Assembly: GCA_030648615.1 (NCBI GenBank)
Contig: JAUSHJ010000040.1
Span: 1-64,000 of the forward strand
Source of the DNA: Microcaldota archaeon
GTDB taxonomy: Archaea; Micrarchaeota; Micrarchaeia; Anstonellales; Bilamarchaeaceae
Reading direction: 5' to 3'
Length of the DNA: 64,000 bases
How positions within the stretch are numbered: position 1 is the stretch's first letter; each line of letters starts with the position of its first letter. A model generated the notes under the pieces. That model saw only the letters and a program-made list of their open reading frames with translations. It made no database searches and was not told the origin of the DNA. Shown here piece after piece: positions 9,153 through 50,600 of this stretch. The translations under genes were made by a program, and so were the position numbers.

Positions 9153-11428
9153 TTTCTTCCTAAATTCTTTCCAACTATTTCTAAAATGTCTTTAGCTTCG
9201 TGTCCTACTTTTATTAGAGTCGTGTGACCACGCATTCCCTTGCTGCTCATTTTTGTTGTAATTAGTCCAAGCATTTCCAAATCATTTAAATATTCATGAT
9301 ACCAACGGACACTGCGAGCTCGTTTTTTTATTTTTTTACATACTAATTCATATTCTTCGTAGACTTCTCCTGAGAATAAAAAGCCTTCCATATTGTCAAG
9401 TCGTGCATATTTGCTGCCGTTCAACGAAAGATTTGCAATTGCATTTAGTAATATCTGATGGTTTTCTGGCAGTGTGCTAATTGTTTCAGCAGCAATATCG
9501 AAATCAACTTTTTTTCTTGCAGCTTCTACTTCATTATCAGTTATTTTTTTCTTTCCAGTCTGTTCAGCTATTTCTCCTGCCTTGAATAATAGCTTCAAAG
9601 CATAACGAGCATCCCCACTTTCCTGTGCAGTCATAGCTGCAGCAAGATTAACTGCACTGCTTTCCACTGTACCTTTGTTGAATCCCATCTCAGTTCTTCC
9701 ATCAAGAATTTTCCTTAACTGTTCACTCGAGTAAGGTGGGAAGACCATTTCAGTTTCGTAGAGACTGCTCTTACTTCTTGGATCTAAAGCATCTTTGAAT
9801 GATAATTTATTTGAAATTCCAACTATGCTAACTCCGCCTTTTTTTACCTCGTCATTTACTCTTGTTAGCGTGTAGATCAGTTCGTCCAAATCTTTTATCA
9901 TGTCTATTTCATCCAACACTATAACGAACTGATAATTATTTCCTATTATGTCAATAATTTTTTCATAGTAAAATGGCAATCCGAATCCTGCTTTTTCTAG
10001 TTCAGGTACAAATGGTTTAAGTAATTTCTGGAGAATTCTGTAGCGTGAATTATAAATTCTGCAATTAAGGTATACCATACTTGCGTTTTTTGCAGATTTA
10101 TTGAAATTATCCATAATGCTTTTTACTGAGCATGTTTTTCCCGTATTATGTGATATTATTCCATTTGCTATAAAATTATGGTTACCCGGAACAGTTAGAT
10201 CGTAAACAGTATCTTCGTAAGTTTCTTCTATTGCTATTATTTTGGAAGATAACAAATCTGATTTATAATTTCTTTTTAATCTATATCTATTTTCTAACAT
10301 CTCCTTTAGTTTTTCCTGCTTTTCTTTATGGTAAAAACCTATTTTATTGTAAAATTTAGTTAGATTATCTACTCGAGTTACATATAGTCTATAGCTATCG
10401 AAATACTTGCCATTGCATTTTGCTTTTTTATGTATTATTTTTGAGTTTATTCCAAATTGGTTTAGCAATAACATTATGTCCTGCAATAATCCTTTGGAAT
10501 TAGAATAATACTCTATCATAAACGTATTTTTTGATACCGTTCCATCTCCAGAAAAAAGCGCCTTTAGGAATTCTATTTGTGTTTGTTCATCACATTCAAA
10601 AATTATTTTTGGTACTCGAACAATATAACTTTTTTTACCCTTAGGGATACCTAAAAATGAAAGACAATCACATATCTTTTGGGATATTACTTCAACCTGC
10701 AAAGTTTTTCTACTTAACTGTTCTCTTCTGATAGTTGCTTTATAAGGGAATAAATCTGTTAAGTCTTTTTGAACCAATTGCAATAACTCCACAGTGTTAC
10801 TAGTATATCTTAGTCGTTGCCTATTAGAATTATACCAGTAACCTTTGCTATCCTTTGTCCGTTTTTTCTTCTGGTTTATGCTTCCATCGCTTATTACAAA
10901 ACCCAATAATCTTGCCAATCCAAAAGGAATCTGTTTTTTGCTCTCATTTGAAAAATTAAAACCAAGAAGGACATCATCATCTTTTTCTAGTTTGTCTGCT
11001 TTAGCCCATGTCAAATCTTTTAATAATAGCGGGTGATCTTTAGTTACTACCAATTCCAGACCGTTATCTAGGACTATTTTAAGTAATTTGTCATTATTTT
11101 TAAAAGTCAAGAATTTGAAGTTTTTCCATTCGTATTTTCTAGTTTTCAAATTGAAAGTTAGCACTTTTTCTGTTCCTACTATAGATTTTATTTCTTTATA
11201 TCCCTCGTTTGTCATCACCAGCGTTGAGCCTGAAACACAACCTGTTTTTCCATAGATGAAAAGATTTCTTGGTTTTCTGCCTCTTAGTGCAGAAGATACT
11301 ACCCCCATTATTTCTTCTATTTGTTGTTCGCGGAAAGGTAAAACATCTGGTACGTAGTGTGGTGAAAGTACGGAAACGTCTTTGAATATCGATTCTCTTG
11401 CAAGAATTTGCTCAAAACTAGGACTCAT
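9149..11428 (-). CDS. cdc6: Orc1/Cdc6 replication initiator with intein in the Walker A motif
   Basis: Exteins FIYGKTG / TGKTCSVKSIMDNF, VIVLDEIDMI, winged-helix C-term; intein with Cys1 and NGIISHN|T. Confidence 0.95.
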   Translation of the reverse strand: MSPSFEQILARESIFKDVSVLSPHYVPDVLPFREQQIEEIMGVVSSALRGRKPRNLFIYGKTGCVSGSTLVMTNEGYKEIKSIVGTEKVLTFNLKTRKYEWKNFKFLTFKNNDKLLKIVLDNGLELVVTKDHPLLLKDLTWAKADKLEKDDDVLLGFNFSNESKKQIPFGLARLLGFVISDGSINQKKKRTKDSKGYWYNSNRQRLRYTSNTVELLQLVQKDLTDLFPYKATIRREQLSRKTLQVEVISQKICDCLSFLGIPKGKKSYIVRVPKIIFECDEQTQIEFLKALFSGDGTVSKNTFMIEYYSNSKGLLQDIMLLLNQFGINSKIIHKKAKCNGKYFDSYRLYVTRVDNLTKFYNKIGFYHKEKQEKLKEMLENRYRLKRNYKSDLLSSKIIAIEETYEDTVYDLTVPGNHNFIANGIISHNTGKTCSVKSIMDNFNKSAKNASMVYLNCRIYNSRYRILQKLLKPFVPELEKAGFGLPFYYEKIIDIIGNNYQFVIVLDEIDMIKDLDELIYTLTRVNDEVKKGGVSIVGISNKLSFKDALDPRSKSSLYETEMVFPPYSSEQLRKILDGRTEMGFNKGTVESSAVNLAAAMTAQESGDARYALKLLFKAGEIAEQTGKKKITDNEVEAARKKVDFDIAAETISTLPENHQILLNAIANLSLNGSKYARLDNMEGFLFSGEVYEEYELVCKKIKKRARSVRWYHEYLNDLEMLGLITTKMSSKGMRGHTTLIKVGHEAKDILEIVGKNLGRN
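10145..11239 (-). mobile_element. LAGLIDADG-containing intein in Orc1/Cdc6 (365 aa)
   Basis: CVSGSTLVMTNEG ... LARLLGFVISDGSI ... FLKALFSGDGTV ... VYDLTVPGNHNFIANGIISHN; boundaries G|C and N|T. Confidence 0.93.
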
Positions 11429-30637: not shown

Positions 30638-30898
30638 ATGAAAGACAACATTGATCAGATTGCAGAAATGCTCAGTACGCTTACTGAAGATACAACTATT
30701 CCAAAAAACATAAGAAAAGCTCTTAGTGAAGCTAGGGATAGATTGAAGGGATCGGATGATGCAAATATCAAAGTAAGTGCCGCAGTATATCTGATTGAAT
30801 CTATAAGTGAAGATATCAATATGCCATCCCACGCGAGAACTCAAGTATGGGCAGTCATGAGTATGTTAGAATCTTTGAAAATAAATCCTATTCAGTAA
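30638..30898 (+). CDS. UPF0147 family protein
   Basis: LTEDTTIPKNIRKALSEARDRL...NIKVSAAVYLIESISEDINMPSHARTQVWAVMSMLE. Confidence 0.9.
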   Translation: MKDNIDQIAEMLSTLTEDTTIPKNIRKALSEARDRLKGSDDANIKVSAAVYLIESISEDINMPSHARTQVWAVMSMLESLKINPIQ

Positions 30899-30912
30899 TT
30901 AAAACAGGCGGT

Positions 30913-32358
30913 ATGGTGAATAGTTTATCGGTGCTTGTTCAAAATGGTATTCGCGTAAGTACAGATGCAGAAGAGATGCTTAAGAATATCGAAGATCAGG
31001 AAATTGTTGATAAGCTAATTAAATTAAATAAACCGATGATTACAAAAGAAGATCTGGAAACTTTGTTAAGAAAAGAAGAAACCATAGTAGAAAAGGTTGA
31101 TATATTACGGTCCAGTGATTTCAATCCTATTGCGAAAGAATATTCTCCAGATATAGAAGTTCTACATGCTAAAGATATCACTGGGAAATCCAGGACAAGG
31201 GGAGAAGTTGACGATTTTGTAAGTTATTTTAAGAATCGTTACGAACGCATATCAAGAATGCTTCGAGCCCCTGGGAGATATCCGCAGATGGATCTTGGGG
31301 AAGTTAAACGTCATGTTGGAGAACGTGTGCGTGTAATCGTAACTGTGATGGAAAAACGAGATACACAAAAAGGAAATTTGCTTCTTGAAGTAGAAGATTT
31401 GACAGGGAGATTTAAGATTATAATAACTTCTAATTCTAAAAATGAAAAACTAGAAGAGAAATCTAAAAATATTTTACTTGATGATATAATTGCAATTACC
31501 GGGAAGGTATTTGAACCTTTCATGATTGCTGAAGATATAGAATGGCCCGACATTCCAGTACTTCGGGAAAGGAAATTCTCTGAACTTGATGTTGCAACCG
31601 TTTATATTTCTGACTTACATTTTGGTTCCAAGTATTTTCTTGACCATTATTTGAATCTTTTTGTAGATTGGATTCATGGGAAAGGTGAGGCAAAAGAGCT
31701 CGCTGGAAAAGTAAAATATATGGTAGTCGCCGGTGATCTAGTAGACGGCATAGGCATCTATCCTAATCAAGAAAAAGAATTGGTAGTTAAGGACATCTAC
31801 AAACAATATGATATGTTTGAAGATTTTCTTGAGAAGATTCCTGATTACGTAGAAGTTATAATATCTCCTGGAAATCATGATGCTGTGAGACGTGGAGAAC
31901 CGATGCCAGCCATACCGACAGAATTTATTAAAAACGATGTAATCCGAGTTGGAAATCCATCCACTGTTATCATAGAAGGTCTTAGACATCTGATTTATCA
32001 CGGTACTTCCATGGATTCACTCATTGCAGCATTGCCCAATGCCAGTTATAGTCATCCAGAAAAAGTTATGACGGAGTATCTGAAACGAAGGCATCTTTCA
32101 CCAATATATGGTGGTAATCTTATAATTCCGGAAAAAGTCGACTATCTTGTAATAGATGACCCACCAGATATTCTTCACTGCGGTCACGTTCATAGAAACG
32201 GATACATGCTTTATCGTGGAACGTTGGTAATAAATTCAGGCACTTTTCAGGATAGGACTGATTACCAAATGAAGCAAGGTCACGTACCAACGCCAGCGAT
32301 GGTTCCAGTTTATGAAATGAAATATGGTAGGTTGAGAACCTTAGATTTCAAGGTATGA
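30913..32358 (+). CDS. polB: DNA polymerase D small subunit (DP1)
   Basis: YISDLHFGSKYF, VVAGDLVDGIGIYPNQEKEL, ISPGNHDAVRRGEPMPAI, LHCGHVHRNGY. Confidence 0.95.
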   Translation: MVNSLSVLVQNGIRVSTDAEEMLKNIEDQEIVDKLIKLNKPMITKEDLETLLRKEETIVEKVDILRSSDFNPIAKEYSPDIEVLHAKDITGKSRTRGEVDDFVSYFKNRYERISRMLRAPGRYPQMDLGEVKRHVGERVRVIVTVMEKRDTQKGNLLLEVEDLTGRFKIIITSNSKNEKLEEKSKNILLDDIIAITGKVFEPFMIAEDIEWPDIPVLRERKFSELDVATVYISDLHFGSKYFLDHYLNLFVDWIHGKGEAKELAGKVKYMVVAGDLVDGIGIYPNQEKELVVKDIYKQYDMFEDFLEKIPDYVEVIISPGNHDAVRRGEPMPAIPTEFIKNDVIRVGNPSTVIIEGLRHLIYHGTSMDSLIAALPNASYSHPEKVMTEYLKRRHLSPIYGGNLIIPEKVDYLVIDDPPDILHCGHVHRNGYMLYRGTLVINSGTFQDRTDYQMKQGHVPTPAMVPVYEMKYGRLRTLDFKV

Positions 32359-32379
32359 TTATTATTTGATGTGATATCA

Positions 32380-32469
32380 ATGAATTGTCCCACGGGACAA
32401 ATATCCGTGTGCTTTTCAAGCACATCTGTTGAACAAGGTTCAACATCTCGAAGTGATTTCTCGATGAAT
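32380..32469. repeat. Tandem hairpin array H at the 5' end of polC flanked by a 6-bp direct repeat
   Basis: ATGAAT at 32380-32385 and 32464-32469 bracket TTGTCCCACGGGACAA, TGTGCTTTTCAAGCACA, GTTGAACAAGGTTCAAC, TCGAAGTGATTTCTCGA; 84-nt offset (28 codons). Confidence 0.85.
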
Positions 32470-35400
32470 ACGCAAAATTATTTTATAATTCTCAAAGCCG
32501 AACTGCAGAAAGCATATGCAATTTCCAGCGAAGCTCGTTCGAAAGGTTTTGATCCTGAAAAAGAAGTAGAAGTTAAAATAGCTCCAGACGTTGCAGCAAG
32601 AGTAGAAGGTATTGTGGGTCCAAAGGGAATTGCAGAAATTATACGTAGTATGGAGAAGCAAGGAATTTCCAGAGAAGACGTCGCATTTGAAATAGCAAAA
32701 AAATTAGCTTCCGGAGAAATAATCAAAGGAACAAAAGAGCAACTTGTAGAACAAGCAGTTAGAACTGGATTGGGGATACTTACAGAAGGTGTTCTTGTAG
32801 CTCCAACCGAAGGCATAGCTAAAGTTAGGGTAAAAAATAATCCTGATGGTACTGATTACGTTGCAGTTTATTATTCTGGTCCAATTAGAAGTGCTGGGGG
32901 AACTGCTGTAGCCTTAAGCGTTTTATTGGCAGATGTGGCTCGTAGGGTAGTTGGCATAGGAGATTATAGGGCAACTGATACTCAAATTGAAAGATATAAT
33001 GAAGAGGTAAATATTTACGAATCACGTGTGGCGCATTTGCAATATAAGCCTCCTGAAGAAGATGTTAAATGGGTTGTACAGAATTGCCCAGTTTGTATAG
33101 ATGGTGATCCTACAGAAGAAATAGAAGTGAGTACTTTTCGCAGTGTTCCTGGTGTTGAAACCAATAGAATAAGAGGGGGAGTACCACTTGTTATTTGTGA
33201 AGGGATAGCTCAGAAATGCGCAAAAGTTTTCAAGTATACTAAAAAACTTAACCTTGGCTGGACCTGGCTTGAAAAAATTATTAAAGTTAGTAAAAAAGAA
33301 GACAAGGTTGATATTAAGGTCGATTTTACCTATCTGGAAGGCATGGTAGCAGGAAGACCAGTATTTGCCTACCCATCTAGGATGGGTGGTTTTAGGCTCA
33401 GATATGGAAAAAGTAGGACGAATAGTCTAATGGCAAAAAATATTCACCCTGCAACAATGATTCTTCTTAGTAATTTTCTTGCCTATGGTACGCACATGAA
33501 AATTGAAAGACCAGGTAAAGGTTGTGTTATAGCTGGTCACGAATTGCTTGAACCTCCAGTGGTAAGATTGAAAAATGGCACAGTGACAAAAGTCCATACT
33601 ATCGAACACGCAGAGAATTTGGAAAATCAAGTATCAGAAGTACTTTTTCTTGGGGATATGTTAATTACTTATGGTGATTTCCTAAAATCTAACTATCCGT
33701 TAATTCCAAGTGCTTGGTGTGATGAATGGTTCGTAAAGGAGTTAGAATCAAAAGGAGTTCAGCAGATTAACCTTAGCACAGCCAAAGACGCATTCGAATT
33801 TTCTAGGAAATACGAAGTCCCTCTTTTACCTCTATTTACTTATAACTGGGGAGATTTGAAAAAAGAGGAGCTTGGAAAACTTGCAGATTGGCTTTGTAAG
33901 GTGAATTTACAGTTAAATGAAAACGGAGAGTTGCAAGAAGCTACTATTGATAATGCCCCCGAGAAAAGTTATCTTGAAAACTTACTGGTGGAACATAAAC
34001 TCGCAGATGGAAAAGTAATTCTAGAATCGGATAATGCTTACGCAGTTCTTAACACATTGGGGTTACTGAATCAGACTATTATTAGCATGGATAAATTTAC
34101 TGCTGCATTTTCAAAATATAATTCGGTCTTTGAAATATTAAAAGAGTGTAGTGGAATAGAAATCAAAAATAAATGTCCAAGTTATATTGGCGCAAGAATG
34201 GGTCGTCCAGAAAAAGCCAAGGAAAGAAAAATGGATGGTTCCCCACACGTTCTTTTTCCAACCGGTTCACAGAAAAACAGAAGTATTGCTAAGGTTTACA
34301 AGACTATAAAAGGCAAGGATATAGAAAAAACCATTAATTTGGAGCTTGCAAGGATGCGCTGCATGAATTGTAATTCACTTACATTTTATGCCAGATGTGA
34401 AACCTGTGGTGGAGCAGCAAGACTAGAACGTGCCTGTGTGAAATGTAGCAAGGCAACCGATAGCGAAATTCACTGTGATGAAAAGACAATTATCTACGAT
34501 CGGAGACCAATAAATATAATTTCCATTCTTGAAAATACCAAAAAGAAACTTGGTTTTATGCCAGAAGATGTTAAAGGTATCAAAGGTCTTTCAAATCCTG
34601 AGAGATTTCCAGAACGTGTAGAAAAAGGGTTTTTCCGTTCAAAACACGATGTCTATGTATTTCGAGATGGTACTTCCAGGTTCGATGCTACGGATATACC
34701 TATCACACACTTTATTCCAAAAGAAATTGGGGTAACCATTGAGAAACTACGTACTCTTGGCTATGACAAGGATTATTTTGGGAATGAGCTTACCAAAGAT
34801 GATCAATTGGTTACCATGTATCATCAAGATATAATACTTGCAGATAATGGTGCTGACTATTTCATGAAAGTAGCAAATTTCATGGATGACATGCTGGTAA
34901 ATCTTTATGGGTTACAATCATTTTATAATGTGAAAAAGAAAGATGATTTGATTGGGCATTTATGTGCTGCGCTTTCTCCTCACACTAGTGCAGCAGTGCT
35001 ATGCAGAATAATTGGTTTTACCAGAGCTAATGTTGGATATGGGCATCCTTACTTTCATACTGTAAAGAGAAGAAATTGTTTCCATCCACAAACTCGTATT
35101 TTAATCGAAAGCAGTAAAAATAAAAAATACAAGATCCTCGAAGTTACACTAGAGGATATTACCGAGAATCTACTAGGTGCTAAAAATGCACGCATAAAAG
35201 TTCTGGATAATGATACTATACGAGTAGAATCAGAAGAAGAATTATTTGTTCACAGTATAGATAAGAGTTCAAAACAGATAGTAAAAAGAAAAATAAAATG
35301 TTTCATGAAAACAAAAGCTCCAGAATACTGGATAAGAATAATGACCAAAAATGGAAGAGAGATGTCAGTTACACCGGATCACAATATTCTTTGTATAGAA

Positions 35401-36360
35401 AACGGCATCATGAAATCTATAGAAGCTTCTAATGTAGTTCTTGGGCAGAAAATACCAATACGAGATAAATCAAAGAAATCATTTATACTTGAACCTATTG
35501 TAAAGATAGAAAAATTCATCGAGGTTAAAAATGCTTATTGCTTGGACATAGAAACAGAAAGCGATGAATTAGTAGAGAAAAATGTTCTATTGAACAATGG
35601 TATATTTTGTATTCGATGTGATGGTGATGAAGACTGTGTTATGATGCTTTTGGATGCACTAATAAATTTCTCAAGACATTACCTGGATGAAAGACGTGGA
35701 GGAACAATGGACACTCCATTGGTACTTAGTCCAACCATAGATCCAAAAGAAGTAGATGATGAAGCACACTGCATAGAAATGGTGACCAGTTACCCATTAG
35801 AATTTTATCATGCAACTGAAAGATTTGCATTGCCAAGCGAAGTAAAAATTAAAACTGTAAAAGATGTGCTTGGAAAAGATGAACAGTTTGACATTCCGCT
35901 TACTCATTTAGGTGGCTATATAGATAAGGGAAATATACGTACTGCCTACGTTTTGTTGGATTCAATTCCAGATAAAATAAAAGTGCAATTTGAATTGCAC
36001 GAGCGACTTAGAGGTGTTGACCAGAAGGATGCTGCAGAACGGCTTATTCTTAGTCATTTCATCCCTGATCTCTATGGCAATCTTCGTTCTTTTTCAAGAC
36101 AAACTTTCCGCTGTGGTAATTGCAATGAAAGTTTCCGGAGAGTGCCCCTTGCAGGTAAATGTTATCGTTGCGGTGGAAATCTTCTTTTAACAATTAATAA
36201 AGGCGGAATTCAGAAATATTTAGAGATATCAAGGGGAATAATAGATCGGTATCAGCTTCCAGATTATTTGAAACAGCGGATTGATCTTCTTGACAAAGAG
36301 ATAAAAAGTATATTTGAGGATGATAAGATAAAACAATTAGGTTTGGCAGATTTTATATAA
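32380..36360 (+). CDS. polC: DNA polymerase D large subunit (DP2) with intein
   Basis: YYSGPIRSAGGTAVALSVLLADVARR, IGARMGRPEKAKERKM, KRRN|C...R|CDGDEDC, RGGTMDTPLVL. Confidence 0.95.
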   Translation: MNCPTGQISVCFSSTSVEQGSTSRSDFSMNTQNYFIILKAELQKAYAISSEARSKGFDPEKEVEVKIAPDVAARVEGIVGPKGIAEIIRSMEKQGISREDVAFEIAKKLASGEIIKGTKEQLVEQAVRTGLGILTEGVLVAPTEGIAKVRVKNNPDGTDYVAVYYSGPIRSAGGTAVALSVLLADVARRVVGIGDYRATDTQIERYNEEVNIYESRVAHLQYKPPEEDVKWVVQNCPVCIDGDPTEEIEVSTFRSVPGVETNRIRGGVPLVICEGIAQKCAKVFKYTKKLNLGWTWLEKIIKVSKKEDKVDIKVDFTYLEGMVAGRPVFAYPSRMGGFRLRYGKSRTNSLMAKNIHPATMILLSNFLAYGTHMKIERPGKGCVIAGHELLEPPVVRLKNGTVTKVHTIEHAENLENQVSEVLFLGDMLITYGDFLKSNYPLIPSAWCDEWFVKELESKGVQQINLSTAKDAFEFSRKYEVPLLPLFTYNWGDLKKEELGKLADWLCKVNLQLNENGELQEATIDNAPEKSYLENLLVEHKLADGKVILESDNAYAVLNTLGLLNQTIISMDKFTAAFSKYNSVFEILKECSGIEIKNKCPSYIGARMGRPEKAKERKMDGSPHVLFPTGSQKNRSIAKVYKTIKGKDIEKTINLELARMRCMNCNSLTFYARCETCGGAARLERACVKCSKATDSEIHCDEKTIIYDRRPINIISILENTKKKLGFMPEDVKGIKGLSNPERFPERVEKGFFRSKHDVYVFRDGTSRFDATDIPITHFIPKEIGVTIEKLRTLGYDKDYFGNELTKDDQLVTMYHQDIILADNGADYFMKVANFMDDMLVNLYGLQSFYNVKKKDDLIGHLCAALSPHTSAAVLCRIIGFTRANVGYGHPYFHTVKRRNCFHPQTRILIESSKNKKYKILEVTLEDITENLLGAKNARIKVLDNDTIRVESEEELFVHSIDKSSKQIVKRKIKCFMKTKAPEYWIRIMTKNGREMSVTPDHNILCIENGIMKSIEASNVVLGQKIPIRDKSKKSFILEPIVKIEKFIEVKNAYCLDIETESDELVEKNVLLNNGIFCIRCDGDEDCVMMLLDALINFSRHYLDERRGGTMDTPLVLSPTIDPKEVDDEAHCIEMVTSYPLEFYHATERFALPSEVKIKTVKDVLGKDEQFDIPLTHLGGYIDKGNIRTAYVLLDSIPDKIKVQFELHERLRGVDQKDAAERLILSHFIPDLYGNLRSFSRQTFRCGNCNESFRRVPLAGKCYRCGGNLLLTINKGGIQKYLEISRGIIDRYQLPDYLKQRIDLLDKEIKSIFEDDKIKQLGLADFI
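35077..35616 (+). mobile_element. Mini-intein (180 aa) in DP2, degenerate C-terminal splice motif
   Basis: N|CFHPQTRIL ... SVTPDHNIL ... AYCLDIETESDELVEKNVLLNNGIFCIR|C; no LAGLIDADG seen. Confidence 0.88.
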
Positions 36361-47649: not shown

Positions 47650-50600
47650 GTGAAAATTATGTCGGAAATAATCATAGAAAGACCAATTGAAAAAGACCTT
47701 CAAGAAAGCTATCTAGCTTACGCAATGAGTGTTATTATTGGCAGGGCAATTCCTGATGTAAGGGATGGCCTAAAACCAGTACACAGGAGAATTTTATTTT
47801 CGATGCATGATCTAGGGAATCACCATAATAAACCCTATAAAAAGAGTGCAAGAATAGTGGGTGACACTTTAGGAAAATATCACCCGCACGGTGATCAAGC
47901 TATATATGATTCACTTGTAAGAATGGCACAATCGTTTTCGTTACGATATATGCTAGTTGACGGTCAGGGAAATTTCGGATGTTTTACAAAAGATACTAAA
48001 GTTGCGTTGACAGATGGAAGAAGTTTGTCATTTGAAGAGTTAATTAAAGAATACAAAGAAGGAAAAAAGAATTATACATTTACAGTAGATCGAGATAATA
48101 AAATAAAAATAGCAGAGATAAAAAATCCAAGATTGACAAAAGAAAAAGCAGAATTAGTTAAAGTTATTCTTGATAATGGTGAAGAGATAAAATGTACTCC
48201 TAATCATAGATTTATGCTAAAAGACGGTACATATAAAGAAGCTAAGGATCTGGAATCTGGAAATTCTTTGATGCCATTATATTCTAGGTTATCAACAAAA
48301 GATGACGATCCAAATATCGTAGGATATAAAATGATTTATAACTCTTCTGAGGAAAAATGGGTATACGTCCATCATTTATCCGATGAATTTAATCTAGAAA
48401 ATGGCGTCTATGCAAGAAGCGCTGGCAGAATCAGGCATCATATAAATTTTAATAAACTTAACAACAATCCAGAAAATATCAAAAGAATGGACTGGAAAGA
48501 GCATTGGGTATTACATTACAACTTGACTTCTCAAAAACATATAAATGATCCAGAGTACAGGAGAAAACTGGCAGAAGGAAGAAAACAATTTTGGAGTGTT
48601 GAAGAAAATAAGAAACTCCTATCAAAGAGAACTTCAAAGAGAAATAAGGAGAACTGGGAAAAACCATTATATAGAGCTAAAATGTCTCAAAAACTTAGTG
48701 AAATAAATAAATTATATATTGAAAATCATCCAGAAAAAAGACAAGAATTTAGTGCTAGATTAACTAACACACTAAAAAGATTATGGCAGACAGAATCCTA
48801 TAAATTAATAATGAAGGCAAATATTACGAAGGGAAATAAGAATCATACAACTAATAAAACTGGAAAAGTAAAATTTCTTAGAATATGTAAAGAAATTAGT
48901 ACTAATAGGGAAATTATTTGTGAAAAAACTTACGAAAATATAAGAAATATTCTCTATCCTTACGGATCAGCTACAACCTGGACTACTGCTTTGAAAAAAT
49001 ATTTTAATAATGATCCTAATCTAGTGCTGCAGGAATTAAATAAAAATCATAAGGTTACCAAAGTAGAGAAATTAGGTTATTTGGAAGATGTTTATGATTT
49101 AACTATAGATATTACGCATAATTTTGCTTTAGCCTCAGGAATTTTCGTTCACAATTCAATAGACGGGGATAATCCAGCTCACATGCGTTATACAGAGGTG
49201 AGAATGGCTCGTACAGCAGAAGAAATGCTTGAAGATATAGATAAAGAAACAATCGATTTCCTTCCTAATTTTGATGGTACGTTGAAAGAGCCTACAGTAC
49301 TCCCAAGTAAATTACCAAATTTACTTATAAACGGTACTTCTGGTATTGCTGTAGGTATGGCAACTAATATGCCGCCTCACAATCTCAATGAAATCGTTGA
49401 TGCTACTGTTGCAGTGATTGATGGTGCAGATGAATTGGTAGTCTTGAATATTGTTAAAGCACCTGATTTTCCAACAGGCGGAGAAATTGTTGGTAAGGGC
49501 GGAGTGTACAATGCTTACAAAACCGGAAGAGGGACTATAAGATTGCGTGGAAAAGCAGAGATAGATGAGAAAAAACACATTATTCGTATTACAGAAATTC
49601 CATACCAGATTACGAAGACTTCAATAATAGAATCAATTGCAGAATCAGCCAAGGAAAAACGCATAGAAGGAATCCGTGGCATACATGATAGAAGCGATAA
49701 GGATGGGATCGAAGTTATCGTAGAACTTTCCAGAGATGCAAATCCAGAAGTCGTACTTAATCAATTATACGTTCACAGTCCGCTTGAAACTACTTTCGGT
49801 ATTATTAATCTTGCAATTGTAGGAAAGGAGCCTAAAGTATTGTCTTTATTTAGCCTCATAAATGAATTTATAGGATTTAGAAAAGAGGTTATAACAAAGA
49901 GAACTAAATTTGAATTGAGAATTGCAGCAGAAAGGGCACACATATTGGAAGGATTGAGAATTGCTCTTGACAATATTGATGCAGTCGTAGCTTTTTTACG
50001 TGCTTCTAAGGATGTAGAATCTGCCAGAACTGGCATGATGGCTAACTATTCATTGAGCGAGAAGCAGGCTAATGCAATTCTAGATATGAAATTGCAGAAG
50101 TTAATTTCTTTAGAAAGAAAGAAGATTGATGATGAGTATGCAGAACTGAAGAAGACCATAGACTGGCTAAAGGAAATATTAGCAGATGTTGGCAAAGTAA
50201 TGAAAATCATCAAAGATGAACTGCTTGAAATAAAACAAAAATACGGAGATGAAAGAAGAACTAAAATTCTTGATATCGATGGCGACATAGTCACAGAAGA
50301 TCTTATACCTAATGATGATGTAGTTGTCGTAATCACCCAGCGTGGGTACATTAAACGAATGCTGCTTAACGAATACAAATCTCAGCACAGAGGGGGCAAA
50401 GGAGTAATCGGTGCAGAAACAAAGGAAGAAGACTTTGTGCGAGATCTCATAGTTACAAAGAACAAGAATTACATGCTATTCTTTACAGACAAAGGAAGAG
50501 TTTTCTGGCTTAAAGCATACCAGATACCAGAATCAGGAAGATATGCAACCGGAAAAACAATTGTTAGCATGCTGGATCTCAAGGAGGAAAAAGTAAATTC

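Follow-up and report, generated by a model that had tools for sequence, protein, structure and literature searches.

The DP2 gene and its insert

The 64,000-nucleotide stretch analysed here (the window, positions 1 to 64,000 of contig JAUSHJ010000040.1) belongs to the draft genome of a Micrarchaeota archaeon (G000; 1.65 Mb in 76 contigs, 89.75% complete) and carries, as a single open reading frame (ORF) at 32371-36360 on the plus strand, the gene for DP2 (polC), the large subunit of DNA polymerase D, which holds the catalytic core of the replicative polymerase. This ORF contains an in-frame insert of 180 codons (35077-35616, plus strand) with the edges KRRN/CFHPQTRIL upstream and NNGIFCIR/CDGDED downstream (the slash marks the junction). 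An earlier note on this DNA had placed an intein in DP2 so as to interrupt N/CDGDED, and the frame, open throughout, bears this out. The features on which the argument turns are listed below; the Arg clade is the group of five inteins ending in Arg described in the next section.

35077-35616, plus strand: DP2 mini-intein, 180 residues, without an endonuclease domain, ending Ile-Arg (from sequence, profiles and model)
32371-35076, plus strand: DP2 N-extein, ends KRRN; 32371 is the ORF start, and translation may in fact begin further in, for example at 32476
35617-36360, plus strand: DP2 C-extein, starts CDGDED, in which Cys+1 precedes the catalytic acidic motif
35077-35079, plus strand: Cys1, step 1 nucleophile, block A; Cys in 32 of 32 aligned rows
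35371-35382, plus strand: block B Thr99-Pro-Asp-His102 (TPDH)
35383-35385, plus strand: Asn103 (B:11), kept by every Arg-clade member; the remaining rows have other residues
35539-35547, plus strand: block F Cys155-Leu156-Asp157; all Arg-clade inteins have Asp157, and Thr stands there in 26 of the remaining 27 rows
35578-35580, plus strand: Lys168, position -13, adjoining the place of the block F His; the same in all Arg-clade inteins
35611-35616, plus strand: Ile179-Arg180 (ATT CGA), the unusual C-terminus in the place of Gln/Asn
35617-35619, plus strand: Cys+1 (TGT), step 2 nucleophile
30847-32358, plus strand: DP1, polymerase D small subunit, directly upstream of DP2

By origin and anatomy, as read from its sequence and predicted fold, the insert is an intein, and its site is a known one. 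It matches TIGR01445 (intein_Nterm; E=2e-10, above cut-off) and Pfam PF14890 (E=4.9e-7, below the gathering score), and its sequence resembles those of solved inteins, that of Pab polC (E=3.6e-6) included. A 201-residue AlphaFold2 model, built from a 32-row alignment, has a mean pLDDT of 91.2 and a pTM of 0.86. The best VIA-align rows for this model are inteins, among them the Pho Pol-II intein of the same site (7OEC; Z 23.6, rmsd 1.7 Å, 165 residues aligned), and the alignment range ends at model residue 191 (the Arg) and at 166 of the 7OEC chain. Two scans of viral contigs found no relatives. Where block positions go beyond those in the passages we cite, they follow the standard numbering.

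Blocks A (N/CFHPQT) and B (TPDH) are intact, as the earlier note held, and codons 35611-35616 agree with its reading of the C-terminus: ATT encodes a penultimate Ile and CGA (35614-35616) a last Arg, followed by TGT for Cys+1. Both alternative frames across the junction contain stops and lack a His-Asn ending, and no Asn, Gln or Asp stands directly before Cys, Ser or Thr within the last 80 residues of the intein.

A clade of DP2 inteins ending in Arg

Profile surveys covered two phyla, Micrarchaeota (301 genomes) and the phylum around a Methanomicrobiales genome (392 genomes), and the query profile, A3, describes Arg-type inteins over their C-terminal portion. In Micrarchaeota, endings of the form CIR/C or SIR/C occur at the same site in five of the 301 genomes, with E-values of 1.8e-35 to 1.9e-32; the next match, among the matches listed, has 7.8e-13. 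The five hosts (G000, G026, G104, G029 and G279) span three families of the phylum (f1, f19 and f24) and encode the Arg as CGA, CGT, AGG, CGT and CGG, respectively. An exact 8-residue pattern scan of genome contigs returned one Arg-type locus, L033, which is the record of G029.

The ending to be expected at this site is not His-Asn, as the earlier note had assumed. Profile A3 matches 129 of the 392 genomes at E<=1e-10, and the terminal residue, read at all 129 junctions, is Gln in 120, Asn in 7, Asp in 2 and Arg in none. Among Micrarchaeota, nine same-site inteins end in Gln (G074, G059, G083, G012, G036, G030, G025, G022 and G020) and two in Asn (G105 and G101). Aligned by eye, Arg180 and the Gln that ends haloarchaeal inteins like ETNTLVANDLYVGQ/C share one column with no gap needed. 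A closely similar block G on the Methanomicrobiales side reads ANGIFCGQ/C, against NNGIFCIR/C in the window. Judged from these alignments, what distinguishes the window intein at this site is Arg versus Gln, one A-to-G transition apart. Asn replaces His at position -12 in 23 of the 129 Halobacteriota-side inteins. In G036, a junction of DP2 intein and C-extein is found both on C15 (101-334, minus strand) and on C28 (13-207, plus strand), either because the gene is there twice or because the assembly repeats it where contigs end.

By comparative sequence evidence, the Arg ending is real and strongly conserved and not one decayed copy. The five inteins share 32-53% protein identity over 171 aligned codons. 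Their NG86 synonymous distance is undefined through saturation for all but one of the ten pairs, which has 2.76, and dN is 0.40-0.74; IQ-TREE codon models gave saturated branch lengths, and all distances are from NG86 only, with dS undefined or above 2.6. With codons modelled as evolving neutrally along a simplified tree, either a star or two cherries, the chance that all five keep Arg is 1.3e-4 to 2.7e-4 at a root-to-tip distance of 1.35 and 1.2e-2 to 2.3e-2 at a distance of 0.5. Mean pairwise identity within the clade is 71% over the last 28 residues (blocks F-G) and 38% over the rest; the same comparison gives 59% and 47% for the nine Gln-ending Micrarchaeota inteins.

Cys1, Thr99, His102 and Cys+1 are present in all five members. 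Asn103, Asp157, Lys168, Ile179 and Arg180 are likewise shared by every member, and the remaining 27 rows of the alignment lack them or seldom have them, and further clade-invariant residues, Trp85 among them, lie outside the classical site. Since the classical step 3 residues are all lost and a new conserved set has been gained, functional replacement would explain the pattern rather than decay, and the strongly conserved Arg ending points to an unrecognised self-excision route for inteins.

A tree of the splicing domains, computed with the terminal column left out, unites the Arg inteins in one clade (support 100/99) that includes the pairs G029 and G279 (100/99) and G026 and G104 (92/84). 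On the DP2 extein tree, each of the five hosts requires a change of its own, four changes being forced by starred branches: the sister of the window DP2 is the intein-free G001, and G105, sister of G104, has an intein at this site that ends in Asn. LAGLIDADG_3 domains lie within the inteins of G029 (E=1e-12) and G279 (E=4.7e-17). Because one intein clade occupies scattered DP2 hosts and two of its members carry LAGLIDADG domains, the clade appears to be mobile, and horizontal spread after the Arg arose is the simplest reading of these trees; alternatively, the scattered hosts would reflect many losses of the intein.

How the intein may leave the polymerase

We infer splicing, and we consider it likely, if well short of assured, that the insert is active and class-1-like, its third step being rewired so that Arg stands for Gln or Asn. 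In step 1, an N-to-S acyl shift would take place at Cys1, aided by Thr99 and His102 of block B, and step 2 would transfer the N-extein to Cys+1; to this point, the residues kept suggest that the Arg intein probably works like class 1. Arg180 would then free the intein from Cys+1 in step 3, with Asp157, Lys168 and Asn103 as clade-specific helpers, and the usual S-to-N shift of step 4 would restore RRN-CDGDED. At B:11, the place of Asn103, the Arg of Ssp DnaE assists Asn cyclization according to an excerpt of PMC4031507.

One version of step 3 closes a ring. The Arg delta-lactam forms in peptide synthesis. Among intein residues, those named as cyclizing in step 3 in the cited part of PMC4031507 are Asn, Gln, Asp or Glu, and Gln closes a six-membered ring, the aminoglutarimide (PMC8175363, in part). 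Arg is the standard residue besides Gln with a linear side-chain nitrogen at equal backbone distance, and since Arg Nepsilon and Gln Nepsilon2 are equidistant from the backbone, the same six-membered ring could close. Nepsilon of Arg180 would attack its own carbonyl, Asp157 or Lys168 could handle the protons, and the intein would leave with a six-membered C-terminal lactam; the ending itself would have evolved from Gln via a single A-to-G change. Ornithine, an Arg-like chain with a free amine and so an analogy for the ring closure, cyclizes and promotes chain scission according to a portion of PMC10017022, the only paper that a literature search on Arg lactam cleavage turned up. By this analogy, an Arg-lactam step 3 in a mobile clade, which would add a further cyclizing residue beside Asn, Gln, Asp (and Glu), is a tentative proposal.

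The main competitor of ring chemistry is splicing with a hydrolytic step 3, which we regard as possible but doubtful. Asp157 or Lys168 would activate water or attack, and Arg180 would only polarize the scissile carbonyl. The invariance of Asp157 and Lys168 in the Arg clade, and their lack in most other rows, would fit new catalytic groups, but hydrolysis leaves unexplained why Arg and not another cation is kept exactly at the Gln place. The excised intein would here carry a free C-terminal Arg acid, with a calculated mass of 20,823.2 Da against 20,805.2 Da for the lactam, 18 Da apart.

It is unlikely that the intein performs N-terminal cleavage only, giving a two-chain DP2 in which the intein stays on the C-terminal piece and the chains assemble into a working polymerase. 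Intact step 1 residues and the loss of every classical step 3 residue would suit such a product. However, conservation is highest in blocks F-G and at the last two residues, which would be unexpected if these were functionless, and the cut would fall inside the catalytic RRN/CDGDED, with 180-513 residues remaining attached.

Several observations weigh against active splicing in general. All five inteins end in Arg, where a class 1 intein has Asn, Gln or Asp (PMC7664689, in part), and the clade is devoid of the block F His and the penultimate His that assist step 3. The sample is small, with five sequences, and the clade has a long stem and an unresolved sister (77/88 with one Asn-ending long-branch intein). 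As for chemistry, guanidinium is a poor nucleophile. On the host side, the DP2 of G279 lies on a long extein branch and breaks 4 of 63 invariant columns, including a change of DGDED to DGDEL (leave-one-out controls break 0 to 5). For G026 and G029, one of the three outgroups shows a DP2 that evolves faster than that of G035 (p=0.011 and 0.0016), and the remaining two give p of 0.07 to 0.23. A PolB gene, finally, was found in four of the five hosts, so that DP2 need not be essential. In G279, the PolB match (C77:16430-17611, plus strand) reads through one in-frame TAG, which may mark a pseudogene, an error or recoding.

These PolB genes are what would favor a splicing-dead element, with DP2 dispensable or tolerating the insert and PolB replicating, a scenario that we find quite improbable. 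PolB was not found in G104 (81% complete), the Arg pattern recurs in three families, and the intein residues are constrained despite saturated synonymous distances. The DP2 exteins of the window lineage also remain constrained. With G035 as outgroup, unique changes number 64 in the window DP2 and 60 in G001 (p=0.72), four other outgroups give p of 0.07 to 0.79, and the window DP2 breaks none of the 63 columns invariant in 33 other DP2s; by these sequence comparisons it evolves no faster than its intein-free sister. Each of the five Arg-type genomes has one DP2 catalytic domain, split in two pieces around the intein. The earlier note had allowed for another DP2 in the cell, but a second polC was looked for and seen in none of the five, the window genome (89.75% complete) included. 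Its description of the intein as "splicing-dead or non-canonical" survives in the second half. The first is unsupported because Arg is kept in five divergent inteins through four different codons, because conservation within the clade is greatest in blocks F-G, because two members carry LAGLIDADG domains and because the host DP2 of the window lineage is without relaxed constraint.

We dropped the retention of Cys+1 as an argument. It is found in all intein hosts, but it does not discriminate, because Cys is also present in 16 of the 18 intein-free DP2s with the motif (of 20 loci). Some intein-free Micrarchaeota DP2s read RRNADGDED or RRNTDGDED (L029, L031, L055, L056, L059, L061 and L063), and Ala or Thr in place of the +1 Cys might protect the site from inteins.

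A true C-terminus six residues upstream, at the Asn pair of LLNN/GIFCIR (Asn at -8 and -7 in the window), can be rejected as very improbable: across the five inteins position -7 reads N, N, N, N, D and position -8 N, E, E, N, N, the Asn at -7 is the block G Asn of many Gln-ending inteins, the following residue is Gly or Gln and no nucleophile, and six extra residues would be left ahead of CDGDED. A normal ending masked by faulty sequencing or assembly, or by reassignment of a codon, conceivable in a draft of 76 contigs, has a negligible chance of being correct, as five genomes agree while using CGA, CGT, AGG, CGT and CGG, and the window genome has four further inteins with a His-Asn end.

The window genome contains at least five inteins, three of them in the window, and all are canonical except that of DP2. 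A DNA gyrase subunit A (GyrA) intein at 47980-49155 (plus strand) ends FVHN/S, and a Cdc6/Orc1 intein at the GKTG loop (10145-11239, minus strand), with a LAGLIDADG domain, ends ISHN/T. Elsewhere in this genome, a helicase intein on contig C36 (L092) ends ILHN/T and that of an SRP54-like GTPase on contig C29 (L093) ends IVHN/T. The gene order around the DP2 intein is DP1, DP2, cysteinyl-tRNA synthetase.

Place among intein classes and significance

Class 1 inteins have Cys or Ser at position 1 and Cys, Ser or Thr at +1. Measured against this class, the Arg inteins have Cys1, block B Thr99 and His102 and Cys+1 in all five sequences, and the predicted model of the window intein has a Hint fold. 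Their insertion site, RRN/CDGDED, is that of DP2 (Pol-II) inteins. The penultimate and block F His residues, usual but not universal in the class, are replaced by Ile and by Lys-Asn or Lys-Thr. We set the Arg inteins outside class 1 because they fail its terminal-residue test.

Other classes were considered and rejected. Class 3 inteins have no nucleophile at residue 1 and carry Trp in block B, Cys at F:4 and Thr in block G. Although the window intein has Cys at F:4, it also has Cys1, with Ile at residue 104 and Cys at residue 178, which does not give the Trp-Cys-Thr triplet named in an excerpt of PMC5050341. Class 2 (KlbA type) has Ala1 and Ser at G:6 in the cited part of PMC4031507, and the window intein has Cys1 and Ile179. 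Type B bacterial intein-like domains (BILs), like the window intein, are without the standard block G ending, but according to the same source, seen in excerpt, BILs lack the +1 nucleophile, whereas the window intein interrupts a replication enzyme and keeps Cys+1, as do all five Arg inteins.

Among known systems, the Pol-II inteins of Pyrococcus abyssi and P. horikoshii (2LCJ, 7OEC and 5BKH) share with the window intein the host gene, the CDGDED flank, the Hint fold, Cys1, the block B Thr and His, and Cys+1. They have a Gln end, a block F His and a penultimate His (excerpts of PMC8175363 and PMC8229266), whereas the window intein has Arg, Asn/Lys and Ile at those places and a longer block F loop. 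The Pol II inteins of P. abyssi and Methanoculleus marisnigri splice slowly with Gln, as stated in the portion of PMC4031507 cited. The DP2 mini-inteins of M. marisnigri and other Methanomicrobiales occupy the same site, are mini-inteins with Cys at F:4, and include a block G, NGIFCGQ/C, that closely resembles NGIFCIR/C of the window; they differ in their terminal residue (Gln in 120 of 129, Arg in none) and have about 30% identity to the window intein. The other Micrarchaeota inteins, ending in Gln or Asn, share phylum, site and Hint domain, and most have an endonuclease insert; they form a separate clade, and most have kept the block F His. Among the papers listed in the literature searches, which did not extend to subscription papers or InBase, none showed an Arg-ending intein.

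A conserved and apparently mobile Arg clade within a catalytic motif would mean either that the terminal-residue rule of inteins is broken or that the polymerase works unspliced or half-cleaved. If splicing is true, an intein would be able to replace its third step by altering blocks B, F and G in concert, and protein engineers may gain a new C-terminal cleavage chemistry.

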